A DNA stretch of 60,775 nucleotides, taken from the IMG/VR virus record IMGVR_UViG_3300030102_004656, positions 1 to 60,775 of that record; one strand, given 5' to 3'. The notes beneath the pieces are model-generated. The model was not told the DNA's origin. It did no database searches and worked only from the letters and a program-made list of their open reading frames with translations. The position numbers and the translations under genes were made by a program. The stretch is from a virus. Shown in pieces: positions 23,230 to 56,900 of this stretch (within the stretch, counting starts at the first letter, position 1; each line of letters opens with the position of its first letter).

Positions 23230-24306
23230 ATGTGGATACTACCAAAAAATATATCAGACACTTGTCCCTCTGTAGCGGATACGAGGGGATTGGGCTTGGA
23301 CTCAGAAGAGTTCTCCCAAATGTGCGAGAAGTCGCTCATGTTGAAATCGAAGCCTTCGCTGTGGCGAACTTGGTTGCGAAGATGGAAGCGAATCAAATTC
23401 ATCCAGCACCTGTGTTCACGAACCTTAAAGAATTCCCATTCGGAAAGTTTCGTGGATGCGTGGACATCATGTCAGGAGGGTTCCCTTGCCAACCTTTCTC
23501 CGCAGCAGGAAAGAAGAGAGGGACGGAAGACCCAAGACACCTCTTCCCCTACATACTCGAAGGCATCAAACAGTGCAGACCAGCAGTTGTGTTTCTCGAA
23601 AATGTTGAGGGAATCATCAGCAGTAAAACAGCCGATGGAGAATCTGTTCTCAAGTATGTCCTCCAAAGTTTGGAAGCAGTGGGTTATCGGGCAACGGCAG
23701 GAGTTTTCTCAGCGTCTGAAGTCGGAGCTCCACACCAGAGAAAACGAGTGTTCATTATGGGGTACACCATCGACAATGGACACCTTGCCTCCACGATCAG
23801 CCGAAGCATTAGCCAGAGCCAAGAAGAAAGGCGGATGCAAAAACTTGAGGGAAGAGGTAGCCAACTGGCCGACCCCAACAATTGCGGAAGTGTCGGGAGG
23901 GATGAGACTGAAACAGATACAAGAGGGGAAGTGGGGAAACATCCAACTGAGGGAAGCTATAGCCATGCAGAACTGGCCGACTCCTACGACGAGCGATCAC
24001 AAGGGTTCAGGTCCGACAGTGATACGGAAGGACGGGAAAGACAGATCGAATGGGAGGCTAGACTATGCTACCGAGACACACTCTGGCCAGCCTGTCAGAA
24101 CCAACAGCAGTACGACTGGGAAGAACCTCGAACAGTGGGGAACGCCATCAGCGAGCGATCACAAGGGACACCCTGGAAAGAACAGCAAGCAGAAGCGGAT
24201 CACGAAACAGGTGAGCAATCCGAACAGGCTGAACCCATCGTGGGTGGAGCAACTGATGGGGCTCGAAGTGGGATGGACCCAACTGCCAACCGAGTGGACC
24301 GACTAA
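23230..24306 (+). CDS. Overprinted W-P-T-P-T protein in the methyltransferase region, 358 aa
   Basis: This frame is open for 358 codons across almost the whole methyltransferase gene, shifted by one base. It starts at an ATG that shares two bases with the methyltransferase GTG (ATGTG). From about residue 150 it is not random: KVWKQWVIGQRQEFSQRLKS is followed by four related motifs, LWGTPSTMD, NWPTPTIAE, NWPTPTTSDHKG and QWGTPSASDHKG. The end reads LNPSWVEQLMGLEVGWTQL. I recall proteins with repeated W-P-T-P-T and a terminal LNP-x-WVE-x-LMG-x-x-x-GWT in phages and bacteria near cytosine methylases, without a known function. It may be a true second product, or a conserved shadow. The N-terminal ~150 residues look less structured, so an internal start is possible. 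Confidence 0.55.
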   Translation: MWILPKNISDTCPSVADTRGLGLDSEEFSQMCEKSLMLKSKPSLWRTWLRRWKRIKFIQHLCSRTLKNSHSESFVDAWTSCQEGSLANLSPQQERREGRKTQDTSSPTYSKASNSADQQLCFSKMLRESSAVKQPMENLFSSMSSKVWKQWVIGQRQEFSQRLKSELHTRENECSLWGTPSTMDTLPPRSAEALARAKKKGGCKNLREEVANWPTPTIAEVSGGMRLKQIQEGKWGNIQLREAIAMQNWPTPTTSDHKGSGPTVIRKDGKDRSNGRLDYATETHSGQPVRTNSSTTGKNLEQWGTPSASDHKGHPGKNSKQKRITKQVSNPNRLNPSWVEQLMGLEVGWTQLPTEWTD

Positions 24307-24380
24307 GAATGCTAGGCAATGGGGTGCTACCTCAAGTTGCTGCTAAAGCATTTCTTGAACTACATAAAAGAATGGTATAG
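23232..24380 (+). CDS. DNA (cytosine-5) methyltransferase, 382 aa
   Basis: The protein transfers a methyl group from S-adenosylmethionine to C5 of cytosine in DNA. Motifs in order: I, LSLCSGYEGIGLGL (near residue 11, with C in place of the usual F-x-G start); IV, GGFPCQPFS with catalytic Cys86; VI, FLENV with Glu123; VIII, QRKRVFI (~169-175); and a C-terminal LRMLGNGVLPQVA (motifs IX-X). The variable target-recognition region of about 190 residues is polar, Glu/Ser/Arg-rich and doubly coding. I choose the GTG at 23232, since the ATG at 23230 is in the other frame. No restriction enzyme is adjacent, so it is orphan and may protect the phage from host restriction or regulate expression. Local base composition is visibly richer in G+C than the neighbours. 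Confidence 0.9.
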   Translation: MDTTKKYIRHLSLCSGYEGIGLGLRRVLPNVREVAHVEIEAFAVANLVAKMEANQIHPAPVFTNLKEFPFGKFRGCVDIMSGGFPCQPFSAAGKKRGTEDPRHLFPYILEGIKQCRPAVVFLENVEGIISSKTADGESVLKYVLQSLEAVGYRATAGVFSASEVGAPHQRKRVFIMGYTIDNGHLASTISRSISQSQEERRMQKLEGRGSQLADPNNCGSVGRDETETDTRGEVGKHPTEGSYSHAELADSYDERSQGFRSDSDTEGRERQIEWEARLCYRDTLWPACQNQQQYDWEEPRTVGNAISERSQGTPWKEQQAEADHETGEQSEQAEPIVGGATDGARSGMDPTANRVDRLRMLGNGVLPQVAAKAFLELHKRMV

Positions 24381-24647: not shown

Positions 24648-24953
24648 ATGTTACTAAGAAAAATAAACAGAGGACTGTATGAAGTGATGGATACATTTGA
24701 AAATAACTACATCGTTCAAGACAGTAGAGTCCCATCCGCTAAAAGTTTACCTAACTTTTGTAAAACAAAAGATGGTTACTGGACCGTATGGTATGAGAAC
24801 CCTTATCAGATAAATGTAAGCACCTATGAAGATGAACGTATGGAATTAGATGAAGGCTATGTATTTATCAACAACGACAAAACTTTAAAAGACTGTTTGT
24901 TTTCTGTAGCTTTGTTAGAAGAGGCTCAAGAAATAATTACTAAAGAAGATTAG
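24648..24953 (+). CDS. Unknown protein, 101 aa
   Basis: The protein starts MLLRKINRGLYEVMDTFEN and has aromatic and acidic stretches (GYWTVWYENPYQINVSTYED; LKDCLFSVALLEEAQEIITK). No family is recognised. Its TAG stop overlaps the stop of the 2722-residue protein on the other strand by four bases, the shortest possible convergent join. It lies just after a terminator, so a promoter must lie in the 12 intervening bases or transcription must read through. Confidence 0.6.
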   Translation: MLLRKINRGLYEVMDTFENNYIVQDSRVPSAKSLPNFCKTKDGYWTVWYENPYQINVSTYEDERMELDEGYVFINNDKTLKDCLFSVALLEEAQEIITKED

Positions 24954-27900
24954 TCATTAATAAAGAACCCATCTTCATCTGCAATTTTTTGAACCTCCTT
25001 TAAAAACACTTCGTATTTCCCCAAGCTTTTTGAATCTAATGTTTCTTTTCTTTTATCACTTAGATCTCCAGAAAACCAACGACCTCTATTAATTACTTCA
25101 TCATATTTACCTTTGGTAAATGATCTCTTACCTGTCTCATCAAAGACATCAACATTAGCCCCGATTGCTTTCCCTGTGAAAGCCTTTCTATATTTGTTCA
25201 TTAGTTTAGCTGCGATCTTCCCTTGTTCTACTGAGTCTTTAGCAGCTTTAATGACATCCTCCTCAGTGTAGTTATCATTCAGGATAGCCCTGTTTAATTT
25301 AAATTGAGCAAGTTCTAAGTCTTGTTTAATACCTTTATGGAAAGTCCTCGCTGAATTATCAGGGTCAATAACATAAGGTTTAATTGGTGAGACATAATTC
25401 TTTAAGAAAGTTTTAAAGTCAAACTCCCCATCCTCCATAAAGTTTTCGCTCTTTCTCAAAACAGTAGGTGGTGTATAAGCTTCTTTAATAAAAACCTCTG
25501 CTTGTTTCCTGATCCTAGTAAGTACACTGTCACTGTTGAAAGCTATCTTATTCCCTCTAGAGTCTTCATTATTAATAAAGGCTCCCATATAAGCATTAAC
25601 TGCAATTTGAGGGTCCACAAAAGGAGCAACAAATTGTTTTAAGAAAGCTTCTGCTCCAGAAACAGCGATGTTTTCATCCGCTTTATAAGCTTTAACCATT
25701 GCTGATGGTACATCAAATACAGGAGAAAACGGATTCACATAAGTTAAATCCCACGAGTGCAGCTTCCCTTCTTTATCTTTTGAGTATAAGAAAGTATGGT
25801 CTCTTAAGAAAGAAGGGACTGCCAATTGCAAAGCACTCCTCTCATCATCTTCAAGTCCATCTACAAGGGTATGTCCGATAGGGGCTAATACTCCTAGATA
25901 AAATATTCTTTCCATCATTATGTCTGATAAAGACATGATAGCAGACGTTGTAGCAGCCCCTTTTAATCTGAGAGTGCCTCTACTTTTTATAATGGGGTTT
26001 TCACTAGCTCTTTCTTTTTTCGCTAGCATAAATGAGTTAGTTGTTATTCTCCAGGTTTCTAATCTAAACCGTAAGAAAGAACCAAAGACACCCCCTGCAA
26101 TAGAGTCTTTCCAATCATTGTATATCTTAGGGGATTGAGAATAATACTGAGCTGTTTGTTTAATCTTGTTAACAGCCTCCATATCTATAGCTTCATTAGT
26201 TAAACTAGCATACCCTGTGTCTCTAAGATTATCTTGATCCCATTGCCTTGCTCTCTCTAAGTAATTCCTTTCAATAGCAAATTGTCTTATCTTATAAAAA
26301 GCATCGGTAGCAAGAGAAAGTCTCTGTAAAGTTCTTACGCTCTCTTGGCTTATCCGTAAACCTTTTTTACCTAGCTTAGTAGCTATCTCTCCCATAACTT
26401 CTAAACTAAGCTCTTCTATGGCTCCTTTCTTTTTAAGAGAAGGTAAACCATTTTCTTCGTAGATTTTGTTTACAACATCAAAGAAGTCCTGCTCTAGTCT
26501 AGCTTCTGTGATATCACTAGATAACATATCTTGTATCAAAGCTGTTGTAATCTCAGGTTCTAATAAACCTATCTCAAACAAATATATTCTGAGGTCGTTC
26601 ACTGTGTTTTGTATACCCGTCTTTTGGGCGAGCGGTCCTTCCGCTCCCATAATATCACCTAGAACTTGGGGCACTCCCACTTCACTGAGTTCAGACATTA
26701 GCTCTTTGAAATTAGTTCTTGGAAGAGATACCCCCATAATTTTTCTTGGGTTATCTCCATCACGAGCAATAGGGGTTCCTTGCATAGCAGGGAAATAAGT
26801 AAGAGCACCTGCTATGTTACGTGTAAAATATGTAGAACTACCCAAAGTTTTCGTACCAAGAGAAGTAAAAACAAACCACCTAAAAACTTTGTCTATAGGA
26901 CCATGATGAGCTCTAGCCTCTTGTTTATTTTTAACGTTATAGAAATCAACTAAATCAGGGTGTATAAACCAACCTTTAGATGTATCCATAAATGGGTTAA
27001 AAGGTTTCTGGAATCTAGATGGGAAGATAGAAGACTTGTTGTTTTCTTTATCAAGGACAGGTTTAAAGTTAGCCCAACCAAGCTCTTCAAATCTAGCAGG
27101 ATCTTCTTCTTGCATAGACTGGTATTCTTCTGTAGTTACAGCCCACCAGTTAGACTCATCTTTATCCCCTTCAACACGGGACAACCTCATCAAATTTATA
27201 CCATCGTAGATCTGATTGACTTGAGCTTTTACAGTAGCCAATGAGTTAACTAAGTTAAACCTTGGGTCTTGTATCTCTCCTAAGAAGTCTCTAACTTCAG
27301 AAGAAAGAAGTTCATTCTTCCTCATCAGGACATCTGTCTCTGGATCATCCCCAAGTTTTTCTAAAAACCTTAACGCTTCTTTTTCATATTCAGTATCTGG
27401 GATAAACTTTTCAGCTTCTTTGACTTGCCTTTCAACCAATTCTCTTTTAAGAGCCTCAGATTTTAAGAGCCAATCTGTGTCTTCATTTTTGTAAGCTTCT
27501 TTATCTTTAGCTAGAAGTTTATCATTTATCTCTCTGTCAATTTTCTGTCTCTTAATTCTTTTACCAGCCTGTACTCTAAGTACTCGATACTTCTCACTCT
27601 TACTGTTCTCTATTTTATTCCTATACTTAGCATCTTTAAATGCTAAATAACTTCTGGTTAAATAGAACCCTTCGTTCTTGGAGAACTTAAGTTTTAAACT
27701 TCCATATTTACTTGGGTTAATTATACCAAGATCTTCAGCAATGATGTTAGCTGCTTCAGTTAATCTTTTCCTGGCCTCACGAATTAGTCTACTAAGTTCA
27801 GGAGAAGTCTTTTGTATATCTTTATGAGCTCTTTCTATATCTCTTAGGATAGCTTTCCTAATTCTTTCTTTCTCAATACTAATTCTTTCTCTCTCGTTAG

Positions 27901-30900
27901 CTCTGGCTTCTTTTATTTTTTCTTTTAATAAATCAACATCACCATTAAAATTCTTTTTTGCCCTATCTATTGCAGCGTCTCTCCTAGAAGCGACCTTAGT
28001 TCTAAACTCTTCTGAAGGGGTAGCCCCCTCAGTAGTCCCTGAAGCTACTGAAACTAAATCCGATGCATCATCCCAGCCATTCTCGTAATCTCTTTTAACT
28101 ACCTTATCTATATTTTTAACAAACATCTCCCCTTCAACTTTAATGGCTGCATAAAAAGACTGCCGTCTCTCCTGTTCTCTTCTCCATCTTGGATCAGCAT
28201 AACCCGCAAGAAAGTTCCAAAATTTTTGTAGCTGATTATCAAAGTTAAACTTCTCTAGTGACTCGAAGATTTTAGGCTTTTGATACCCTCCTTTTAATAT
28301 ACCTATAGGTACTTCTAACCTAGTCCGTAAACTAGGAGATGACTTATTAACAATAACATTCCTAATAAAATCTAAAGAGCTTTCAGTATCTGAATCATCG
28401 AAAGGAACTTCAAGCTCATCATTACTATCAAAGATCTTATTAGCTTTTAGGTTTGAAGCTGCTTCCTCAAGCATCTCATTATTAACAAGATCAAAATCAT
28501 CTGAGCTCTCTAAGAAACTGTTGTTGATACTATCAATAGATTTGATAGCAAGTCCTCTCAATCCTGAATAAGAACTTATGATTGAAAAGATATCTTCTAT
28601 ATCACTATCCGATAATACATCCGATGTGTACTTCCTTACTAAGTTCTTAACTATTTCTTCTGCAACTTCAGGAATGATATCCCCATTATCATCTACAATA
28701 TCAGCCTCACTCTTAGTCTCCGTACCTATTGAAGTGTTCAGTTCACTACTTAAGAAAGCTAGAATGCTTGGACCTAATTCGTTATAAGCTGATTGTAGTT
28801 CTTCACTTGAGACTTCATTTAAAAACTTATCTTCTGCAAGTTTAATATTAACTTGAGATACCCATTCATTTTTAGGAACTTTTACTAGGTTAGGTAAGGC
28901 ATAAACATTTAAAGTTATCTCACCATCAGATACCATAATAGGATCATTACCTGAAGTAGACTCATAATTTAAATTAACTACTCTACCCTGGAGTTCTGGT
29001 AAAGAATCAAAGAACTCAGTAGTGTCTAACACAAATTGATTTATCTCATTGATGTCTTCATCAGGATATTCTCTCTGAAGTTTTTTTGAAGAAGTGGGTA
29101 CGGGTCTTCTACTGTAAGACTCACTGGGGTTATTATTAAGTACAAACTCTTTCCTTGTGGAGAAATCTACTCCATTGATGTCCGCATCTAATTGAATCAA
29201 GAAGTCAGACAGCGTAGGTAAATAGTCCTCAGACTTTTTAGCATTTGAATAAGCACTTTTAAGTAAGTCTCTGACCCTTCGATCTATCTTCAAATCTGAA
29301 TCAGCAGAAGAGATATCTTTAACTAGTTGTTTACGGGTGGTGGTAGTACCATCTTCATTCTGTACCTCAATGTCTATTTCAAAATCAAACTTAACATTCC
29401 TTAAGTTCTTTAATTTCTTACCTAATACATTTGAGTTGTACCAACTAGCAATCAAATCTAGTTGAGCTTCATTTATATTGTATAAAGGATTAGCTAGTAT
29501 GTGTGCTCTAGCAACGTTACTTAGAGACTGCTCTATCTGATTCTCTGCAAACAAGTCATTACTCCATGAAGTAGCTTGCTCATATTCTGATAAGGCTTGG
29601 CTCCAAGAATCACCTAAAGCTCCTGCTTCAACAGGGGTTTCTTGAGGTGTGGTCTCAAGGTTTTCATTTGAAGCCGTCTCAAAAATTAATCTCCTGCCCT
29701 GTAAAGATCTCTTTAAAATTTCTACGTAAGAATCCTCTACTGAATTAAGGTGTGAAACTAATTGGCTATCTAAGGATTTGTATATTTCTTTTACATCTTT
29801 AGGGAAAGCTACATTCTCAGGCTTTGTAAACACACGGACCTTGGCGACAACGCCTTGTATAAATCTTAAGAAACTTTCAGGTATGCCTTTGAAGAAATCA
29901 GCTACTGATTTAGAAGAGTTAGATCCTTTTGATAACTCAACAAACTGTCGTGTCATCTCAGAAACTACTTCATCCATAGTCATACCAGAGGAACCTAATG
30001 CCTCTGCTGTTGGGAGCACTACCTCGTTGGTCTTAATACCTAAGTGTCTAGCTACTGATTCAACAGCTAACTTCTTACCTGCCTTCGTACCTACTAAGTC
30101 TAGATACATGTTACCAAGATATGATTTAGCGAAGTCAACAAAGTCGGTCCCTGCTTCTAAACCTTGTTCACTCTGTCTCCAAATACCTTTGAGATAATTG
30201 TTCTCTGATACGTGAATTAACTCATGAGCAATCAGGTTATCTAAAACTTCTTTCTTTAAGTAGCTTTCTTTAGTTGGCTCTAAAGCATTGAGTTGTTGAG
30301 CAATTGCAGCAGAGTCAATCTGCCAAACAATCTTTGGATCATTAGGGTTACTGCCTTTAGCAATACCTACTCGCATAGGTCTACCCTCTTCCAACTGCAA
30401 GAACTCTAATTGAATCTCTTGCTGACCTTCTTTAGAAGGAGCCCAACCTTGGATATACTTCCTAATAAGTTCTTCATCGAACTCTGATAAGTTATCAAAG
30501 TCTGGATTAAATACATTCTCCCCTTCTTCAAAGAGGGGTTCCTCTATCTTTATATCTTGAACCTGTGATCCTTGATCCTGTGGATCATTAACCATTCCTA
30601 ACTTAGCAGCTTCTTCTTGAACCACTTGTGCTGATTCAGGAGAACTATTCTCTTGAAGACCTTCTGCTGAATCTTCTAAGGCTTCTATCTTAAGAACCTT
30701 TTGTGGGTCTACATTGGTACTTTGTGCAGGAGTTTCTAGCTCCTCGAAAATGTCTACGTCTGGTCCTCTATAAGTAAAGAAGCCAACAGGTCCACCGATA
30801 AAAGCACCTAGCTTTCCTGCATAGAGAGCATTATTAATCCTCTCTCCCATTGGGACAAACTCATTTAGATAACTACTCTCTACGAATGAGTTGATAAATT

Positions 30901-33118
30901 CATCAGTTCCTTCTTCGATGCCCTCAAAAATACCTGATTTGAAGACAGCTCCTGGCCTTGTTTTAGTAGCGAAGATTTTTGCTTGTTCTTTAAACTGAGT
31001 AGCCAATGTACTCTTAACGAGTTTCTTTGTGGTATTATCATTAGCCCACGATGCTCCTTTAATATTATTGACACCATTTTTAAATCTTCTGAAAGAGTAT
31101 TTAGAAACAATATCTTCAACACCTCCCATATTAAGTTTACTAAAACCTACTGTAAGTCCACCAGTAATCGCACCAGATAGGAGGCCACCACCCAAAGCTT
31201 TATCATGCTTCTCCTCATGGGACATATCATCAGGTAGAGAACTATAGATTGTAGCATAAGTAGACCCACCAGATCTAGCAGCGGATGTTGCAAATAAAGA
31301 AACGGGTACGGCTAGCTTAGTAGCTATGTACTCATTGTTTTTGCTAATAGCTGCTTTTACTTTGGTTGAATCTTTTGATGACTCTTTAATAAGTTCTTTG
31401 ATTCTTTTCTGACTAGCTGATTCAAAATTAGTTTTAGGTTTAGAAGTCAGAGCATCATTAACAAAACCTTTTTGGAAATCAAGGAAGTTGACCGCTCCTA
31501 GATCAGGTAATTTGGATGCTATTGTAGTAGCTCCTTTTATTGCCAAAGCAGAAGCTGCTAAGTCAGAAAAGACTTGAGGTACTGCGGTAGCTAGATCATA
31601 CCCAAACCCAAAGTCATCGCCAAACAATGAGGCTACTCTTTTTCTAGCAGCTTGTTTGTTTTGAAAATCAGTTAGCTTTTTAGCTGAAACTTCATTACCT
31701 AATAAAGCCCCAACGCTATATCCTATGCTAGGCACAGCGTTGAATAGGCTTTCATTTATACCATACCAAAAGTTCTTACTTTTAGAATAGTTGCTTTTGT
31801 CCTTAACAAAATTCTCATAGAAAGCAATAGGGTTATTTTTATATTCACTAGGATTTTCTGTCTTAGCATCAACCCACTTTTTACCTACCGTATCCCCTAT
31901 GGTATTGAATATCACATCCATTGTTGGGATGTGTGTACCAATAATAAAATTTTCTCTGGTGTTTTTGAGTGCTTCCTTTTGACCATCACTTAGTCGCTTA
32001 TCTTCATTTACTATCTCATTAAAGTTAGGCAACTTCATGAGTTCAGGGTGAGCAACAGCAATCCCTAAAGGAGTTACTCTAATATTTTTAGAGAGATCCT
32101 CTTCTTCATATTTAAAAGCACCTTGGTTATTAGCATGGGTTATAGCGAGATCTCTTATTATCTCAAAGGCTCTTTTATTAGCTGACTTGTAATAACCCTC
32201 TGTATTTAATCCTGCCCCTTCGACATCACCTAAACCTTTTCTTTTAGCAATCTCTTTAACAATCAAAGGTTGTAGGTTCTTTAATTTCTCAGGGAACTCT
32301 TTAAGAATTATCTGATCAATATCTTCTGGCCTGTCAGCAAAAATTTGATCAATCAAAGAGCCTTCATCTCTGTATGATTCTAAATCTATGGTGCTTGTGA
32401 TAGCATCGTTTATTGCTTTAGATATCTCTGACCCTTGCTGTCCTAACAGATCCCTTACTAAAGCAATATCTTCTGAATCAGACATTGCTTGGAATCTATT
32501 ACGCCCAGTTATTGGTGATTCTCCAAGACCCTCTGTTACTTGCCAAAGATCCCTAGGATCTATAGCTCCAGCATACATAGCTTTCAAAGCATCCGCAGAG
32601 GACTTTACCTTCTGCGATTCTGATGTACCTGAAGAATCAAAGTTACCTGCATAAATACTACCTCTACCTTGTTCTTCTACAGAAGCAAAAGGTAACTGAC
32701 CTGAATTAACCAAAGCTTTTTTAGATCTGTTTAGATAATCTTGTTGAGCTTGTGGGTCAAGACTAGCCCAATCAATGGATGGAAATACTTGTGATACAAA
32801 GTTAGCTTGCCTTTGAGTACCTTGCTTAAGTGCTGTTGAGTTACTAGCTATATCAAAGAACTCATCGTCACTAACTTGATCTCCTCCCGTAAACCAATCT
32901 ACATAGTATGATTGTATTTCAGCTTCTTTATCTCTAGTTAACTCACCTCTCTTAAAAGATTCTCCTCTGTAGTAATCTAAGTAATTAGGTAAGTCATCCT
33001 CAACAGTATTTGAAATATTGCTATAAGACTCTTTCCATTCAGGATAAGTAAGTATTGAACCTAATTGACTAGGCTCTGATTTTTCAGGTTGTAATAAAGT
33101 AGAACTGTCTGTAGCCAC
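24950..33118 (-). CDS. Giant putative internal virion (ejection) protein with zinc-protease motif, 2722 aa
   Basis: One uninterrupted frame of 8.2 kb. Features in order: ~1-450 helical and charged; ~465-560 hydrophobic and Ala/Gly-rich (AVPSIGYSVGALLGNEV; VFSDLAASALAIKGATTIAS), perhaps membrane-interacting; ~700-770 more Gly/Ser/hydrophobic sequence; a zincin motif LIAHELIHVSENNYL with H965, E966 and H969; ~1600-1900 a long, very basic helical/coiled-coil stretch; and a hydrophobic/helical C-terminal third (FGSFLRFRLETWRITTNSFM; FYLGVLAPIGHTLVDGLEDD). Giant helical proteins with membrane-prone C-termini near the terminase are the ejection proteins of podoviruses. The HELIH motif could give a peptidase or a structural zinc site. 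I see no known RNA polymerase motif. Confidence 0.75.
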   Translation of the reverse strand: MATDSSTLLQPEKSEPSQLGSILTYPEWKESYSNISNTVEDDLPNYLDYYRGESFKRGELTRDKEAEIQSYYVDWFTGGDQVSDDEFFDIASNSTALKQGTQRQANFVSQVFPSIDWASLDPQAQQDYLNRSKKALVNSGQLPFASVEEQGRGSIYAGNFDSSGTSESQKVKSSADALKAMYAGAIDPRDLWQVTEGLGESPITGRNRFQAMSDSEDIALVRDLLGQQGSEISKAINDAITSTIDLESYRDEGSLIDQIFADRPEDIDQIILKEFPEKLKNLQPLIVKEIAKRKGLGDVEGAGLNTEGYYKSANKRAFEIIRDLAITHANNQGAFKYEEEDLSKNIRVTPLGIAVAHPELMKLPNFNEIVNEDKRLSDGQKEALKNTRENFIIGTHIPTMDVIFNTIGDTVGKKWVDAKTENPSEYKNNPIAFYENFVKDKSNYSKSKNFWYGINESLFNAVPSIGYSVGALLGNEVSAKKLTDFQNKQAARKRVASLFGDDFGFGYDLATAVPQVFSDLAASALAIKGATTIASKLPDLGAVNFLDFQKGFVNDALTSKPKTNFESASQKRIKELIKESSKDSTKVKAAISKNNEYIATKLAVPVSLFATSAARSGGSTYATIYSSLPDDMSHEEKHDKALGGGLLSGAITGGLTVGFSKLNMGGVEDIVSKYSFRRFKNGVNNIKGASWANDNTTKKLVKSTLATQFKEQAKIFATKTRPGAVFKSGIFEGIEEGTDEFINSFVESSYLNEFVPMGERINNALYAGKLGAFIGGPVGFFTYRGPDVDIFEELETPAQSTNVDPQKVLKIEALEDSAEGLQENSSPESAQVVQEEAAKLGMVNDPQDQGSQVQDIKIEEPLFEEGENVFNPDFDNLSEFDEELIRKYIQGWAPSKEGQQEIQLEFLQLEEGRPMRVGIAKGSNPNDPKIVWQIDSAAIAQQLNALEPTKESYLKKEVLDNLIAHELIHVSENNYLKGIWRQSEQGLEAGTDFVDFAKSYLGNMYLDLVGTKAGKKLAVESVARHLGIKTNEVVLPTAEALGSSGMTMDEVVSEMTRQFVELSKGSNSSKSVADFFKGIPESFLRFIQGVVAKVRVFTKPENVAFPKDVKEIYKSLDSQLVSHLNSVEDSYVEILKRSLQGRRLIFETASNENLETTPQETPVEAGALGDSWSQALSEYEQATSWSNDLFAENQIEQSLSNVARAHILANPLYNINEAQLDLIASWYNSNVLGKKLKNLRNVKFDFEIDIEVQNEDGTTTTRKQLVKDISSADSDLKIDRRVRDLLKSAYSNAKKSEDYLPTLSDFLIQLDADINGVDFSTRKEFVLNNNPSESYSRRPVPTSSKKLQREYPDEDINEINQFVLDTTEFFDSLPELQGRVVNLNYESTSGNDPIMVSDGEITLNVYALPNLVKVPKNEWVSQVNIKLAEDKFLNEVSSEELQSAYNELGPSILAFLSSELNTSIGTETKSEADIVDDNGDIIPEVAEEIVKNLVRKYTSDVLSDSDIEDIFSIISSYSGLRGLAIKSIDSINNSFLESSDDFDLVNNEMLEEAASNLKANKIFDSNDELEVPFDDSDTESSLDFIRNVIVNKSSPSLRTRLEVPIGILKGGYQKPKIFESLEKFNFDNQLQKFWNFLAGYADPRWRREQERRQSFYAAIKVEGEMFVKNIDKVVKRDYENGWDDASDLVSVASGTTEGATPSEEFRTKVASRRDAAIDRAKKNFNGDVDLLKEKIKEARANERERISIEKERIRKAILRDIERAHKDIQKTSPELSRLIREARKRLTEAANIIAEDLGIINPSKYGSLKLKFSKNEGFYLTRSYLAFKDAKYRNKIENSKSEKYRVLRVQAGKRIKRQKIDREINDKLLAKDKEAYKNEDTDWLLKSEALKRELVERQVKEAEKFIPDTEYEKEALRFLEKLGDDPETDVLMRKNELLSSEVRDFLGEIQDPRFNLVNSLATVKAQVNQIYDGINLMRLSRVEGDKDESNWWAVTTEEYQSMQEEDPARFEELGWANFKPVLDKENNKSSIFPSRFQKPFNPFMDTSKGWFIHPDLVDFYNVKNKQEARAHHGPIDKVFRWFVFTSLGTKTLGSSTYFTRNIAGALTYFPAMQGTPIARDGDNPRKIMGVSLPRTNFKELMSELSEVGVPQVLGDIMGAEGPLAQKTGIQNTVNDLRIYLFEIGLLEPEITTALIQDMLSSDITEARLEQDFFDVVNKIYEENGLPSLKKKGAIEELSLEVMGEIATKLGKKGLRISQESVRTLQRLSLATDAFYKIRQFAIERNYLERARQWDQDNLRDTGYASLTNEAIDMEAVNKIKQTAQYYSQSPKIYNDWKDSIAGGVFGSFLRFRLETWRITTNSFMLAKKERASENPIIKSRGTLRLKGAATTSAIMSLSDIMMERIFYLGVLAPIGHTLVDGLEDDERSALQLAVPSFLRDHTFLYSKDKEGKLHSWDLTYVNPFSPVFDVPSAMVKAYKADENIAVSGAEAFLKQFVAPFVDPQIAVNAYMGAFINNEDSRGNKIAFNSDSVLTRIRKQAEVFIKEAYTPPTVLRKSENFMEDGEFDFKTFLKNYVSPIKPYVIDPDNSARTFHKGIKQDLELAQFKLNRAILNDNYTEEDVIKAAKDSVEQGKIAAKLMNKYRKAFTGKAIGANVDVFDETGKRSFTKGKYDEVINRGRWFSGDLSDKRKETLDSKSLGKYEVFLKEVQKIADEDGFFIND

Positions 33119-39330: not shown

Positions 39331-40623
39331 ATGAAAGCATTGTTCCCAAAACAGCGTACCGCTGCCGACTTTTTTATTGATGTCTTAGGTCAAGGAAAGT
39401 CTACTATGGACACTTCGAGTGTAGGGACGGGTAAAACTGTAGTTGCTAGTTATGTAGCTAAAGAATTAGCCAGACCAGTAGCTGTAGTTTGTCCTAAAGC
39501 CGTCATACCTGCGTGGGAAAGAGAGCTAGAAGAATTTGGTGTAACTCCTTTATTCGTAATAAACTACGAAAAAATCCGTACAGGTAATACAAAATTTTTA
39601 TCTAAGAAAGGTAAGAAGATAATGAAGTGGGAGTTACCTGAGAATACTTTAATCTTGATGGATGAAATCCATAAAGCCAAAGGTCCATATACACAAAACG
39701 CTCAACTACTTATATCTTTAATATGCCAAGGGTTTCAAGTGCATGGCATGAGTGCAACTGCTTGCGAAGACCCAACTGAAATGAGAGCCATTGGGTATAT
39801 GCTAGGGTTACATAGTTTAAATAAATCTGAAGGGGGTAAACGAAGCTGGTATTCTTGGATGCTATCCAATGGGTGTATGCAAGATCAATGGAAGACATGG
39901 AAGATCATGAGCCGTAAGAAGCTCAAACCACTTAGAGAAAAATTATACAGTGAAACAACTTATAAACTTACTATCGAAGACTTCCCTGATTCTTTTAGAA
40001 ATAACAGAGTCTTTGTAGAACCAATAGAGTTTAGTGCACCTAAAAAAATTATAAAAGCATATGATGATCTAGGGATCACCCCTGATATTGTTGAAGAGTT
40101 TATTGATAAAGGGACTGTTGAAGATTCAGACTTTAATATAGTCAATATAATCAAAGCTAGAATGTTAGCAGAAAGCTACAAGGTTTTAGATCTCGTTGAT
40201 ATGGCAAAAGACTATGTGTCCCAAGGCTATTCAGTTGTTGTATTTTTAAACTATAAAGATAGTATTGATGCTTTTTGTGCCAAGATTGATTGTGGGTCTA
40301 TAGAAGGGGGGCAAACTACTGATGAACGACAGCTAGTGATTGACCGTTTTCAAAGTGATAAAACAAGAGTTTTAGCTGTGAATATAATGGCAGGAGGTAC
40401 AGGACTGTCTCTGCATGATACACAAGGTAAGCACCCTAGGGTTAGTCTAATTAGCCCATCATTCTCTGCAAAGAACCACCTACAAGTTCTAGGTAGGATA
40501 CACAGGAATGGTGCAAAATCAGATGCCCTTCAAAAGATTTTAGTGGCTGCTAATTCTGTAGAAGAAAAAGTCATGCAGTCTATAGATAAGAAAATTAAAA
40601 ACCTTGAAACTTTGCATGGATAA
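39331..40623 (+). CDS. SNF2-like superfamily 2 helicase, 430 aa
   Basis: Motifs in order: I, SSVGTGKT (residues 29-36); Ia, VAVVCPKAVIPAW; II, LILMDEIHKAKG with DEIH at 111-114; III, GMSATAC; V/VI, VAVNIMAGGTGLSLHD and QVLGRIHRNG near the C-terminus. The size (430) is small for Snf2 enzymes and common for phage DNA helicases of this group. The enzyme should remodel or unwind DNA at forks. The downstream nuclease overlaps its end by 8-20 bases, so the pair is coupled. Confidence 0.88.
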   Translation: MKALFPKQRTAADFFIDVLGQGKSTMDTSSVGTGKTVVASYVAKELARPVAVVCPKAVIPAWERELEEFGVTPLFVINYEKIRTGNTKFLSKKGKKIMKWELPENTLILMDEIHKAKGPYTQNAQLLISLICQGFQVHGMSATACEDPTEMRAIGYMLGLHSLNKSEGGKRSWYSWMLSNGCMQDQWKTWKIMSRKKLKPLREKLYSETTYKLTIEDFPDSFRNNRVFVEPIEFSAPKKIIKAYDDLGITPDIVEEFIDKGTVEDSDFNIVNIIKARMLAESYKVLDLVDMAKDYVSQGYSVVVFLNYKDSIDAFCAKIDCGSIEGGQTTDERQLVIDRFQSDKTRVLAVNIMAGGTGLSLHDTQGKHPRVSLISPSFSAKNHLQVLGRIHRNGAKSDALQKILVAANSVEEKVMQSIDKKIKNLETLHG

Positions 40624-41731
40624 TCCAGATCATAGTAGTAGAGGACACGCTGAGTTTTCGCCCTCAAGTCTTAAGTATGTAGCTTCTTGTCCAGGATTTA
40701 AAGGTCGAGGAGGAACTAACGAAGCTGCTGAGAAAGGCACTCGCATACATGAGGCACTAGAAATTAGAGACCCTTCTGCTTTGCACAACGAAGAAGAGTT
40801 AGAAATCTATGAACAAATCTGTAAAGATGAAGAGGCGTTCATGCAAGAGATTATTGGAGATGAAGAGTATGTTGAGCATAACGAAATGCTAACCCATGTT
40901 CAATTGAATGGTACTAGCACATGGGGTACTTGCGACAGGTTAATTATTTATGGTGATAAAGCAATCATGGGTGATTATAAAACAGGTATTTCAAATATAG
41001 ATTCACCACGAGATAACTGGCAAGCTAAAGCTTATACATTAGGAGCCTTCCAAAAGTTTAAGGATCTTAAAGAGATTACCTTTGTATTTTATGTGCCTGT
41101 AAGAAATGAAGTCTTGCATGATGTCTTCAAGAGAGAAGAGATGCCAGAAATGACAAAAGAACTTTCTTGGGTTATCCTCGAAGGCGAAAGAATAAGACCT
41201 CAGTGGGAGTATGGGACTCCACCCGTTGATGAAGTTAACCCCACAGTAAACTGTAGGTTTTGTGCTTTTGAAAGTAAGTGCCCTGCGTTAGGGGCTATAG
41301 CAATACAAATTGCTCAACGAGTAGCTGATCATCCAATACCTGATTCTGATATAGATAATCCTGAAGACATGGAAACTCTTGAACAGCTATGGGCTATTGC
41401 TAAAATAGTAACAAATTGGGCTACTAGAATAAAAGCAAAAGCTGTTGCGAAAGCTAAAGAAGGACATGAATTTCCCTCCCTAAAATTAAAATCAATGGGA
41501 GCCACTAAGAAGTGTAATAATAATAAAAAGCTTATGGAAATAGCTAAAGAGCACAACTTGGCGGATGAAGAATTACTCACGTTAGCAACTTTTCCTTTGC
41601 AAAAAGTTGCAACTGCTGTAAGTAAACAAGCCCCAGATGGGGAAAAGGGCCAAGCGAAGCAGGACTTTTTGAGTGCTGTTAGTGAGGCAGAAATCGTCGA
41701 TGTCTCTGAAACCAGATACACATTGACTTAA
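40604..41731 (+). CDS. Cas4/DUF2800-like PD-(D/E)XK nuclease with Fe-S cysteines, 375 aa
   Basis: The core is GTCDRLIIYGDKAIMGDYKTG: Asp111, Asp124 and Lys126 form the D...D-x-K nuclease site. One Cys lies early, in YVASCPGF (Cys29), and three lie late in VNCRFCAFESKC (Cys217, Cys220, Cys226). One plus three cysteines around a RecB-type nuclease is the signature of Cas4/AddB-type 4Fe-4S nucleases. The N-terminal FSPSSLKYVASC and KGTRIHEALE match the DUF2800-like phage family. The start could be 40604 or 40616. It probably resects DNA for recombination. It sits between the helicase and an SSB-like-position protein. Confidence 0.82.
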   Translation: MKLCMDNPDHSSRGHAEFSPSSLKYVASCPGFKGRGGTNEAAEKGTRIHEALEIRDPSALHNEEELEIYEQICKDEEAFMQEIIGDEEYVEHNEMLTHVQLNGTSTWGTCDRLIIYGDKAIMGDYKTGISNIDSPRDNWQAKAYTLGAFQKFKDLKEITFVFYVPVRNEVLHDVFKREEMPEMTKELSWVILEGERIRPQWEYGTPPVDEVNPTVNCRFCAFESKCPALGAIAIQIAQRVADHPIPDSDIDNPEDMETLEQLWAIAKIVTNWATRIKAKAVAKAKEGHEFPSLKLKSMGATKKCNNNKKLMEIAKEHNLADEELLTLATFPLQKVATAVSKQAPDGEKGQAKQDFLSAVSEAEIVDVSETRYTLT

Positions 41732-50915: not shown

Positions 50916-53900
50916 TTAGCCTATATACCAGTATGCTCCATCACACCATACTGGCACTGTATATGAACCTGATCCATATCCTGCAATAGTAGCTCCAAAG
51001 TTTCCAGATGCTGACATCTGAGAATCACTTACAAAGGCTCTAGCCCCTGCTGCTGAAGAGTTTGCTGTCGGCAATGTGTTAACTGTATAGATCTTACTCT
51101 TTATAGCACCATCGACATCCAACTTCTGTTGTGGGCTTCCTACAGCAATTCCTATATTTCCATTATTATGAATCCTTAATCTCTCCTGACCAACTGCATA
51201 CGTTGATGTATTATTAGAAGCTGTGTAGAATACGATATGTGTCGCTGTATTATAGCTTGATGACCCTCCTCCAAAGCTAATAAAATTAGTAGAGCTTGTG
51301 CTTATTGAGGAGAAGATATTAACATCCTGCTCCGCATTCGTGTAGTGCCTACCCAACATCCTATGCAGTTTGTTGTTAGCGTTGGTCGTATTATCTGAGA
51401 TCCTGTAGGTTCCGACAACATCCAGCCTATGTGCTGGGCTTGTGGTTGATATACCTACGTTACCACTTGAGTTTAGGTAGATAGAGCGATTAGCAGCAGT
51501 GCTGTTATTAGAACTTAATTGTAAACTTGATTGTGCTTTAATAACCGAGCCTGTGCTACCTGCATCGGAGGCATATATATCAAGATATGTTGTACCTGCT
51601 TTTTGGAGTCTTAATTCACCTCCAGAAGTTCCATCTAAATCTAGCCCGCCCCATCCAGCACCATTATAAATATCAAGTAAAACTGATGGACTCGTAGTGC
51701 CTATCCCCACTTTGCCATCACCCTTAATACGCATGGCTTCAGTGGAAGTAGTACCATCAAAAGGAAGGAAATAAATGTCCTTAGTAGACGACCCAGAACT
51801 ATTGTGGCATGAAATCTGTATATCACTAGCCCAAGACTGCATTCTGAAAACACTAACATCATGGGTAATAGCCCCATTATAGTTCATGTCATTGCCACCT
51901 ATCTGAACTTGATTGCCATGCCATGAAACTCTTGGTCTACCTCCAACCCCTACAGCAAAGTCTGCCTTGTTACCATTATCATTAGCCCCATTGATTAGGA
52001 CATGACCATCTGGCTCTATTTGCAGTTTAGTATGACTGCCTACAGAAAGCCTAATCCCACTTAGGGTTCCTGTACCTAAAGCTCCCGTATCAATCTCAAA
52101 ATACCCACTGGAGTGTTTAAGCTGTGTTAATTCATAATTGTAAGTGTCTGAGTAAGATTCATACAGATTTATTTTAGTAGCCGTCGTACCATCACGGGTC
52201 ATTATATTTCCTGCAACCTCTAACTTTTCTACTGGGCTTGTAGTTCCTATACCAACATTACCATTAGAGGCGATTCTTACAGTATGGGTACTACCTGAGT
52301 AAAAGTCTAACGGATGTTGTGAAGTACTACTATTACCTGTCCTTGAATAAATCTTATTAGAAGTGCCATCAGGAGAAACCAACATACCTCCAGTCGGAGA
52401 TGTTGCGGAATTGTCTATACCTATTTGCCCTACAACGTTAAGGCTTCTGTTAGGAGAAGGATTTAGGATACCAATTTTTCCATTTAAAGTTTGAGCAAAA
52501 GCATCTGTATCAACTGTTGACCCAATAAATAAAGTACTTGCTGAATCTTTCCATATCCTATGAGAATTAGCATGAGAACTCGTTATTGAAATACCATCAT
52601 TGGAAGTGTTTCCTTTCTGCCTAACTACTACAGTCCCTCCAGCACTTGCAACACCTGTACCACCATTTACTTCTAAAAGAGTAGAAGGAGCATCAGTACC
52701 AATACCGACATTATTTCCAAAATGTGTTTCTAAATATATCTGTAGATCATCAGTGCCTGGTCTTGCCATTAGAACGGCATCCGCTCTTGGTGCGGTTATA
52801 CTAGTTCCAGAGTTACTGTACCCCGTTGACATCCAGATGTAGTTGTCATTACCAGAATAAAGACCTGTAAACATTTTAGGACTGTTATTCCTCTTATATA
52901 CAGTCGCTGCCCATCCTGAAGGATCGTCTATTATCAATCCATCATTCCAACTACCGCCATTTACTCCAACTAAAGATAATGGAGCTTGAGGATTCGTTGT
53001 CCCTATACCGACTCTTGTATCACTGTCAGGCATCAACACATGGTATGTCTGAGCATTCACCCTAAAGATATCATCGCCATTGTTAGCTTCGACCTTCAAC
53101 ATGTCGAAGTTTCCAGAAGAACCCCCACCTTTAATGTGTACAATGTCTTGAGTTAAAGAACCATCATCTCGTATAGAAAGCTTTGCTGTTATATCAGTAC
53201 CTCCTATGTGGACATTCCCCCTATCAAATACCATTACATCATCGTAAGCAGTGCCATTATTCTTCATGTTCCAGTGGTATCTGACCACACCACCTGCTGG
53301 AATTTCTGTGTCTAATGATAAATAATAACCACTCGGAGAAGGCGAATACGACCACCTCATCGCTTCTTGATCAAGTCCACCCCCCTGATCGCTAAATAAA
53401 GGGTTTAACATTCCTTTAGTGATTTTTATATCACCTCTTTCATTTCCAATTTCAACACCACCTGAATTGTGCTTCAAGAAGAACTGGTCTGGTGTTCCTG
53501 TAGCGGATGAGTTCCCACTTTGGATAATGGTTCCATTATCGCTAGTATGTACATCAATACCTGAACTGGTATTAACAAGAAGCTTGGCGTTTGATTGGAT
53601 TTGAGTGTGGTTAATAATAAACGAATTAGAAGAAGCACCATTTGCTCTAAACTGAATTTCCCCTGCACCTAAAATTGAGGCATTGGTAGTTCCAAACTGG
53701 AACTCTAAATTAGAGTTATTATGCCTTTCAAATCTTATGGTTGGCCCTGCTGAATCTACTATATGTAATGTGCGACTTGGAGTTGTAGTTCCTATGCCTA
53801 CATTTCCTCCATGAGGCAACATAGCAATCCTTCCATCTTTAGTGTCAGGGCTAATTACTTCAATTACCATTTGTTCAGTTAGCCCATAATCTGTCCCTAC

Positions 53901-56900
53901 TCCGTGAGTCGGTATTTGTATGGATAACTTACCCGTTGGGGCATAAGAACTTGAAGAACCTATTAAAGCAGCCCCATAGTATGTGCTTGTTCCTCCTAGA
54001 AAGACTCCATTAGCAGTACTGCTTCCAGAAACACCAAATGCACCATTGCCACTTGTGTGTAGCTTTTGTGATGGAACAGAAACACCTATACCTATATTTC
54101 CTCCAGCCCTCATCACGAGCCTCTCATGAAAGGTCGTATCATTACCATCAACGGCAGACCAAACTAAGTCACCATATCTATGCTGACTCGAACCGCCTGT
54201 AGTAGAAGCCCCATCAGTTCTTAAAACTACTTTCCAATAATCTTTATTTAAACCTCCATAATCATCGATGGTTCTATCGGAACCAATAGTTAAAGCTGTG
54301 TAGTTTTGGCTTGATACAATATTGTGAGTCGAACGTATAGTACCATCAACATCGAGTCTGTGTTGAGGGCTTGTAGTACCTATTCCAACTCTGCCAGTCG
54401 AGCCGTCGAGTCTCATTAACTCGTTAAGAGTAGTTGCGTCTTTTGCTGAAAAAATAACATCTGAATTAGCACCGTTTGCTTTTAGATGTATGCCCCCAGA
54501 TCCATTATTTTGAACAGTTAACTGACTGCCAGTGCTTGCTACCCAATTAGCATAATTTAGGAAATTGTGATTGTTATCTCTCCATAGAAAAATGTTTGTT
54601 CCATTGCCAACTCTTAAATTGCCATTTGTATCTAATCTAAAACCCTCAAAAAATGTATTACCAAAATCTTTTCCAAAAAGTAAATCTGAATTGTTAGCTG
54701 AAATTATTCCATTAAGTCCTGAGTTGTTGCCTAAAAATAATGCAGCCGTATCGCTGTTAGGACGATTAACAGCAACAATTTGATGGGATGCGCTTGTTGC
54801 TCTAAGAGCTAATGGATAGCTTGGGCTAATAGTTCCTACCCCAATTTTACCATCAACTACCAAGTTAGAAGACTCAGTACTTCCATCAGTACCACCAAAC
54901 CTGAAACCTTCAGTAGCAGTGTGTACATATTCTGTACCTGTGTAATTAGGATCTGTGGTTGTAGGCGTAACCGTTTCCTGTGCTCTTGGAAAGATACAAA
55001 CTTCTATTGGTGTAGTCGTGCTACCATTGTGTTTAGCCTCAATAGAAAAATCTTCATTATTATCACTGGTTATCCTTAGTGTGACTTCTTTGTAATCGCC
55101 ACTTATAGATTTTACATGGATGTCTTGATGATGGTTTACTAGTATTTCAAAAGAAGAATTTAGGACTACATTACTACTAGTTCCCGTGATCGTCATATCA
55201 ATGATCGATGCAAGGCGATCTCCAGTCACAGTGCAAAGCATTGTATATGTAGAGTTGTTTATTCCTTCTCTCGTGAATCTTACCTCTCCTGCTTGTGGGC
55301 TGCCATTCATTGTGATGCTATCAACACTCAAATCCCCTGTTACTTTAGCCCCATCATCTGTAGTCTCGAACTTCTTAGAGTCATTGAACCGCAGCTCCAC
55401 CCTTCCATCTGGCACATAAATTAACCCCTTATTGGCATTGTGCCCTATGATGACTCCATCATTACTGTTGTTTCTAATAAATAGGTCACCAGTAACATTA
55501 TCTATGTAAGAGTTATTACCCGTAGTTGTGTGGTAAATGGCTAAATCATAACCATTTCCAAACCTAGCTCGTCCGTTATCAGGTAAATCTATATAACCAT
55601 TTCCATATAACTGAATCCCATCAACCGTGGTAGCGAATCTAACTGCCCCATCATAATACAGAGTTGTGGCTCCATTAGCTACTGACTGGAAGGCTGGTTC
55701 AAATGCGTTTCCAGTTGGGTTATGATGCCTGATATTAAAAGAATTACTGTCAGCTAATGTAGAAACGTCTATAAATTTATTACCATTCGTTACGAAGTTT
55801 AGCTCGCCATCTAAATTTATACTTGTTGTGCCCAATGTACCCGATACATCAGCTCCCCCTTCCGCAGTGGATAGTTTGAGAACACCATCGTGGTAAAGCT
55901 GAACTGCTCCATCAGGTATGAGTTTTATCCCTTCTTCGCCCGTTTTAGGTCTTAAAAGAATCTGACCTCCTCCTGTGTTTCTTATGTATAAATTACTACC
56001 TGAAGATTGTGAGGATATATAATTATGAGTCCCTGATGAAAACAGCTCCAAGCTGTTTGCATAACCTGTGGCAATGGAGTCAGAGGTCATCTTTCCAGTG
56101 ACAAAGATGCCACCTGCACCAGTTTGAAGTTTTGCTGTTGAGTTACCCCCATGAAATAATTTTACTGCACCACCACTCTCAGCAGTTAACATATCCTGAC
56201 CAGAAGAGTTTTCTAGTTGGATAGTATTAGCCGTCTGAATGTACAAACTACCTCCAACATTATTCTTTATGTAGCCATGTGTACCGTTGAATTCTAGCTG
56301 TAGATCGTTTGAATTACCTATTGAGAACTTTGTATTGTCTCTAAGGTTTAGCCTGTCCTCTGCTTGATTCCATTTTAAATATCTATTTGATGTAGCCCCA
56401 TAAAAAATAACATCATGCCCTGTGTCATTCTCCCCAACTGTAATCCCTTGATTAAAATGCCATGAATCAGTGGAATTACTCCAGTTGATTGTGTAATCTT
56501 CACCTCCTTTAAGAGTAATACCACCCCCATCAGCAGTTAAATCTGTTGGGGTAGCAACAGAACCTAATTCAATGTTCTTATCATCAACAGAAACAGTTGT
56601 ACTGTTTATCGTTGTGGTCGTTCCTTGTACCGTCAAACCTCCCGAAATAACAACATTTCCAGAAAAGGTGGCTGCTAAATTAGATATGGCTAATCTTTCT
56701 ACACCCGCTGTATAAAACTTTAAATAGTTAGAACCATTACTTCCTTGGATTCTAACATTAGCACTACCAAACTGCACATAATGAGCAGAGCTAAGTTTTA
56801 AATTTGATGAGGCTATTGTTAGGTCTTGGTAAAAAGCTGAACCATTTGCATCTAGTATTGCGATAGTGCCAGAACTATTTTCAAACTGATATCCAGAACC

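Follow-up and report, generated by a model that had tools for sequence, protein, structure and literature searches.

A phage gene that probably encodes both subunits of a DNA cytosine-5 methyltransferase in overlapping same-strand reading frames

Bacteria and phages are believed to have few long genes that overlap on the same strand. A viral gene in which one frame specifies a recognizable cytosine methyltransferase, and a second frame of the same strand stays open over nearly all of it, raises the question of whether a single stretch of DNA encodes two proteins here, or whether the second frame is merely a shadow of the first. The window, i.e., the whole stretch of 60,775 nucleotides analyzed from IMG/VR record IMGVR_UViG_3300030102_004656, carries the first frame (f1) at 23232..24380 (plus strand, GTG start, 382 amino acids) and the second (f2) at 23230..24306 (plus strand, ATG start, 358 amino acids). 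A preliminary description had reported both open reading frames there, with starts sharing the nested sequence ATGTG (23230..23234, plus strand), in which the ATG of f2 is followed two bases on by the GTG of f1; both were recovered as described. We conclude, with a probability of about 0.8, that the two overlapping same-strand frames of region 23230-24380 encode a heterodimeric DNA cytosine-5 methyltransferase, one subunit each, the translation of f2, the dimer and its activity being inferred.

The methylase frame had been credited with clear motifs, and this holds. Profile searches matched f1 to PF00145 (2.5e-38) and phrog_363 (1e-54). The putative alpha subunit comprises the large domain of a C5-cytosine methyltransferase (motifs I-VIII), a variable connector and motif X, with, all on the plus strand, motif I (GYEGIGLG, 23277..23300, conserved in the f1 alignment), motif IV (GGFPCQPFS with the catalytic Cys, 23475..23501), motif VI (ENVEG, 23598..23612), motif VIII (HQRKRVFI, 23733..23756) and, shortly beyond the end of f2, motif X (GNGVLPQ, 24315..24335; R354, D356 and L361-N363 conserved). 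A motif search found motif IX to be absent from f1; it is located in f2.

The putative beta subunit, f2, shares the coding DNA of its N-terminal region with the catalytic domain of f1; W-x-T-P recognition modules and motif IX follow, again all on the plus strand. Residues 24-83 (23299..23478) form a helical region in the AF2 model that overlaps f1 5' of motif IV (K41, T47, W48, R64 and S69 near-invariant), and residues 145-171 (23662..23742; VWKQWVIGQRQEFSQRL; W148, V152, R156 and R162 near-invariant) form a helix that is the most confident part of the model. The module array (23755..24228) has four W-[PG]-T-P units and corresponds in f1 to the variable connector with its LAD repeats. Motif IX (LNPSWVEQLMGLEVGWT, residues 334-350, 24229..24279) comes next, with N335, P336, W338, E340, L342, M343, G344 and W349 near-invariant. 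The four [NLQ]W[GP]TP[ST] motifs previously read in this frame are present at residues 176, 212, 248 and 302, as is LNPSWVEQLMG, starting at residue 334 (nt 24229); two of the four, both W-P-T-P-T, coincide at the DNA level with L-A-D-[PS] repeats of f1. The most conserved segment of f2 is LNPxWVEQLMGxPxGWT, in the place of motif IX, and the recognition modules are shuffled between relatives, in which the arrays vary. Tandem recognition domains, each reading a target of its own, are the mark of multispecific phage C5 methylases. f2 matches phrog_1008 ‘DNA methyltransferase’ (1.7e-21), which also matches 12 of 12 members of A1. A profile search gave no Pfam match for f2, and searches against Pfam, NCBIfam and PDB sequences returned nothing informative.

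The 358 open codons of f2 had been called unusual in AT-rich DNA. Their openness does exceed chance, but the gene itself is not AT-rich: the GC content of 23232-24380 is 0.511, compared with 0.389 for the window. This high value may simply reflect the shunning of AT-rich stop codons in two frames; the composition of the gene on its own could mislead scans for horizontal transfer. Permutation of the synonymous codons of f1 itself produced 5.3 f2 stops on average, and 5 of 20,000 permutations had none; f2 was open in none of 5,000 re-encodings of f1 with phage codon usage (mean 17.8 stops). Over motifs IV-VIII of f1 in 262 loci, f2 contains 6 stops compared with 414.5 expected under synonymous permutation, and 258 of the 262 loci are free of stops where about 65 would be expected. 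The depletion persists at GC <0.45 (0 vs. 79.8 expected), and in the f1-based set of the window family (72 loci) a single f2 stop was observed vs. 116.6 expected. Four Firmicutes phage genes considered as ‘ordinary’ methylase controls were dropped, since they carry a +1 overprint of their own, and Blautia-type and Dcm-like methylases therefore served as negative controls; the former had 51 +1-frame stops vs. 52.8 expected, i.e., no depletion, and the latter 14 vs. 26.4, a mild depletion. The loci are kin by descent, and only those with identical catalytic regions were removed as duplicates; the numbers of stops and changes should be taken as effect sizes, not as exact probabilities.

Positions 1, 2, and 3 of f1 codons are positions 3, 1, and 2 of f2 codons; owing to this register, changes silent in f1 nearly always alter f2, and those silent in f2 usually alter f1. 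Where f2 starts late, the f1 stretch ahead of it is single-coded and serves as an internal control. Disjoint pairs of such loci showed 0.50 position-3 changes per f1 codon before f2 (95% range 0.44-0.55) vs. 0.29 (0.23-0.34) inside the overlap, and the ratio of position-3 to position-1 changes was 3.2 before f2 and 1.6 inside the overlap; where f2 co-starts with f1, the dual-coded pattern is seen in both parts (ratios 1.8 and 1.8). A synonymous-site analysis, suggested earlier as a check for selection on f2, bears it out, with f2 stops depleted and f1 position-3 changes lowered inside the overlap. In the recognition region, changes at f1 positions 1, 2, and 3 numbered 49, 20, and 19 between the window and a relative (L010), 57, 26, and 27 between two further relatives (L007 and L008), and 306, 132, and 148 over nine close pairs. 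Because changes concentrate at f1 position 1, the wobble position of f2, f2 is the dominant and more constrained frame in this region. The preliminary description had left two options open. One, in which the second frame merely follows from the methylase target domain as a fixed shadow, has to be reversed there: the genuine recognition modules and motif IX belong to f2, and in the target domain f1 is mostly a connecting shadow. The other, that the DNA codes for two proteins, is supported by the conservation and selection of both frames, with expression of f2 not demonstrated. f2 is a real second gene, both frames being open, conserved and selected; its translation is an inference.

Searches of IMG/VR, of phage records and of contigs from bacterial genomes yielded relatives whose identity falls to roughly 25-35%. 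In all, 284 distinct ORFs with motif IX were found, and 277 of them overlap the catalytic domain of a methylase, invariably in frame +1; in 84 distinct loci of the f2-based set, f1 is complete and f2 extends into the catalytic region, again always in that frame. A search based on f1, with no selection for f2, yielded 43 new distinct loci, 35 of them with both frames open, and in bacterial contigs the overprint was seen in 77 of 80. The same double-coded gene is thus recurrent in hundreds of phage and bacterial loci, usually annotated as a single protein; several depositors have already annotated both frames without comment (K1ind2; Tadhana). With few exceptions, f2 is found only on a methylase. 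A candidate for a free-standing f2 gene (L072) was rejected, its f2 sitting on a second methylase of the same contig. Just downstream of a complete overprinted pair, one contig (L081:2120-2350) has an extra f2 C-terminal unit, with a W-P-T-P module and motif IX and without a catalytic domain, which suggests module duplication or exchange. In two loci (L017, L223) one indel, either real or an assembly error, swaps both frames in mid-gene; these look like single indels and were set aside as evidence for fusion.

The nested start is also shared. ATGTG occurs in register in 91 of the 182 loci whose f2 reaches that point, and [AGT]TGTG in 107, the frequency of ATGTG in control stretches of the same genes being 9.5%. 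The position of the first f2 start codon relative to motif IV is bimodal, either 200-300 nt upstream, co-starting with f1, or 25-75 nt upstream, and in only four loci does it lie downstream of the motif. Shine-Dalgarno-like 4-mers precede 52 of the 91 ATGTG starts. We envisage that ribosomes would start at either the ATG (f2) or the GTG (f1), so that one message would yield both chains.

Why f1 should stay open across a region in which f2 dominates is suggested by the loci where it does not. In 250 of 262 loci no stop interrupts f1 in the recognition region, compared with about 14 expected if f2 alone mattered; in the other 12, f1 is broken after motif VIII, with f2 intact. Stop counts in the broken f1 frames are mostly near-neutral relative to an expectation based on f2 alone (17 vs. 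19.1, 22 vs. 24.6, 15 vs. 18.7, 9 vs. 9.7), with one lower (L055, 10 vs. 18.6). Motif X lies inside the f2 ORF in 10 of the 12, where f1 ends after motif VIII, directly or with a variable-length tail; the other two, L033 and L211, have motif X on a separate f1-frame ORF. The simplest reading is that access to motif X is the main reason why f1 is kept open, and that f1 decays after f2 has taken over this motif. A Pfam search with the ten f2 proteins that also carry motif X gave no methylase match, indicating that the C-terminal half of f2 is too diverged for PF00145. The f1 connector is not featureless, since an element WPSRPxExQxxWExPR is conserved in the frame 1 variable region. The form WPARPGExQxxWExPR was seen in f1 between motifs VIII and X (e.g., L059, L063, L145, L147), and in several loci with a shortened f1 it is the last part of that frame.

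Structure predictions (AF2; two rows from annotated public records were left out of the input alignments) gave f1 a pLDDT mostly >80 over about residues 10-210 and over 361-382, the motif-X helix, and <50 over most of the connector (218-361). The f1 model aligns with M.HhaI over about 198 of 327 residues (Z 21.8, rmsd 2.7), and roughly 198 residues is the size of the large domain of M.HhaI alone. Prediction of the W-P-T-P-T protein, f2, which had been proposed as a check, succeeded only in part: some helices are confident, but the single-chain model is poor overall (mean pLDDT 57.3, pTM 0.25), and consequently neither the fold of f2 nor its docking is established. Its pLDDT is about 78-84 over residues 31-60, 56-62 over 61-80, about 92 over 141-160 and 71 over 161-170; the motif IX helix is confident, and the modules are not confidently folded alone. 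A structural comparison of this low-confidence model was uninformative (best Z 2.7).

Divided cytosine methylases have precedents. M.EcoHK31I, which recognizes YGGCCR, and likewise M.EaeI are two-polypeptide cytosine methylases, and in M.EcoHK31I the alpha gene also encodes the beta chain, in a different frame. In M.EcoHK31I the larger chain has motifs I-VIII and X together with the predicted recognition domain, and the smaller chain only motif IX, while M.AquI is split after motif VIII, its small subunit having the recognition region and motifs IX-X (PMC3404938). The window shares the motif distribution of M.EcoHK31I, with I-VIII and X in f1 and IX in f2 alone. It differs in that the W-x-T-P modules, several of them, are in the smaller chain, even if f1 keeps the conserved WPSRPxExQxxWExPR element, that the f2 ORF co-starts with alpha and overlaps nearly the whole gene, and that no restriction enzyme was recognized among the neighboring genes examined. 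With M.AquI it shares a small subunit that has the recognition region and motif IX, and 10 window relatives also have motif X in f2; in the window itself, however, motif X is in the large chain (f1, 24315-24335).

Other phages hold further arrangements. Two proteins, gp4 of Gordonia phage Jabberwocky (444 aa) and gp65 of Mycobacterium phage DLane (464 aa), have motifs I-VIII, several L-P-T-P modules, IX and X in one chain, motif IX (RLNAAFAEWMM / RLAAAFPEWMMGWPAGW) being followed by motif X in the same frame; these actinophage methylases resemble the window in their L/W-P-T-P modules, IX and X, but use one frame and one chain. Andrew gp43/gp44, Anthony gp80/gp79 and Broseidon gp79/gp78 pair a catalytic chain with a +1-frame chain holding modules, IX and X, and differ from the window in their short overlaps (239, 215, and 23 nt, respectively) and in having motif X in the second chain. 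The Kagunavirus ‘C-specific methylase’ and ‘Mte8-like protein’, as well as twin ‘DNA-cytosine methyltransferase’ ORFs of a Paenibacillus phage, are the same overprint annotated as two overlapping genes, with a second frame that starts later. A present-day series of single chain, split, partly overlapping and fully overprinted forms can thus be seen, its direction being inferred. In the open literature searched, which left most subscription papers and REBASE outside its scope, the overlap was not described beyond the split-enzyme precedents; the arrangement has known precedent, while its breadth, the nested start and the dual-coded N-terminus of beta appear unreported in that literature.

A second overprint was found in Firmicutes phages. 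In four methylases with motif IX in frame 1 (L367, L368, L370, L372), a +1 ORF is open over motifs IV-VIII, and a search of the Firmicutes family (L373-L436) gave 55 distinct loci with 2 +1-frame stops vs. 255 expected, an explicit motif IX pattern being recognized in f1 of 26 of the 55. The short +1 ORF has about 140 codons in the examples read, and its tail (SLSDILEDDVPEKYFLS, ILEDxVPEKYFLS) resembles an in-frame segment of other methylases, with weak E-values. Per f1 codon, 0.40 position-3 changes were counted ahead of the overlap, 0.20 inside it and 0.30 beyond it; the ranges of the last two values overlap. This overprint supports a function of the +1 protein beyond carrying motif IX. A tentative proposal, which we hold to be possible with the balance somewhat against it, is that C5 methylases have in the +1-frame protein over motifs IV-VIII a partner under selection in its own right, and not only the carrier of a displaced recognition domain; if it is true, methylase overprinting would be a recurrent way to obtain an enzyme and its partner from one locus. 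L367 (OL774867) and PP978606 are phage C5 methylases labeled ‘IS1595 family transposase ISCco3’, a propagated misannotation.

Several other explanations of the locus have to be weighed. It is hardly credible that f2 goes untranslated and merely mirrors base composition and the constraint on f1: some alternative frames do stay open in GC-rich genes, and the Dcm-like controls are mildly stop-depleted (14 vs. 26.4), but a depletion of 6 vs. 414 that holds at GC <0.45 (0 vs. 79.8) goes far beyond this, Blautia-type controls show none, f2 is intact where f1 is dead, and its C-terminal half is found in frame in the single-chain enzymes. Given that f1 is open through the recognition region in 250 of 262 loci and keeps the WPSRPxExQxxWExPR element, it could be imagined as a complete enzyme with a recognition region of its own, f2 adding a second specificity to the same catalytic domain. 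Such an f1 would, however, be without motif IX, and in close pairs most changes in its variable region fall at positions silent in f2; this region is also not confidently folded by AF2, and decays near-neutrally where f1 is cut after motif VIII. We regard this reading as very improbable.

A programmed +1 ribosomal frameshift after motif VIII, joining the catalytic part of f1 to the modules and motif IX of f2 in one chain, with f2 not made alone, would fit both the order seen in single-chain relatives and the nearly constant +1 position of the second frame. Yet it has no need for an open and conserved f2 with a start codon upstream of motif IV, and leaves the upstream half of f2 unexplained; the layout of the window would require a second shift back before motif X, and no obvious shift-prone context is common to the f1 stops of the 12 broken loci and of three actinophages. 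We consider it quite unlikely. It also seems unlikely that f2 is translated for a separate role, e.g., regulating or inhibiting the methylase or a host restriction system, with motif IX as a relic. Conservation of the N-terminal half of f2 apart from the recognition half points that way, as does selection for a short +1 ORF in Firmicutes phages that already have motif IX in f1 (examples read), but motif IX is the most conserved stretch of f2 in the window family and is absent from f1, and motif X moves into f2 in 10 loci, as expected of the subunits of one enzyme. Several points count against the two-subunit reading that we prefer: there are no expression data for f2; its single-chain AF2 model is poor; the f1 variable region, with its conserved element, is not purely a connector; the recognition domain is placed on the larger chain of M.EcoHK31I, in contrast to the window; and the +1 frame of the second family is open over motifs IV-VIII although f1 there has motif IX (examples read), so the N-terminal part of f2 may serve some purpose other than carrying motif IX.

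We suggest that, in the two-subunit enzyme, the alpha chain (f1) would provide cofactor binding and catalysis through motifs I-VIII, together with motif X, reached via a variable and probably flexible connector. The beta chain (f2) would be the small domain, with exchangeable W-x-T-P recognition modules and motif IX; it would dock on alpha and supply DNA recognition, the two chains folding together as one enzyme. Among the neighboring genes examined (GP88, DnaA-C-like, DUF3085) no restriction enzyme was recognized, and an orphan methylase protecting phage DNA is therefore the likely role. By inference, the enzyme would mark the DNA of the phage, its target site and the protection of the phage likewise being inferred. 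Elsewhere in the window there are very long ORFs at 24950-33118 (minus strand, 2722 codons) and 50916-57362 (minus strand, 2148 codons), and at 40604-41728 (plus strand), between a helicase and a family A DNA polymerase, a protein matching DUF2800 (2.1e-23) and a PD-(D/E)XK nuclease (1.3e-8).

The locus represents a same-strand overlap of about 1.1 kb conserved across phages and bacterial genomes of several phyla, with visible intermediates from the single chain through split and partly overlapping forms to the fully overprinted gene, including loci in which motif X has passed from one frame to the other. Genes now annotated as one ‘DNA cytosine methyltransferase’ may in many cases yield only half of the enzyme if cloned alone, which would be of consequence for the assignment of methylation specificities, and the modular recognition half offers a natural set in which to study sequence recognition.
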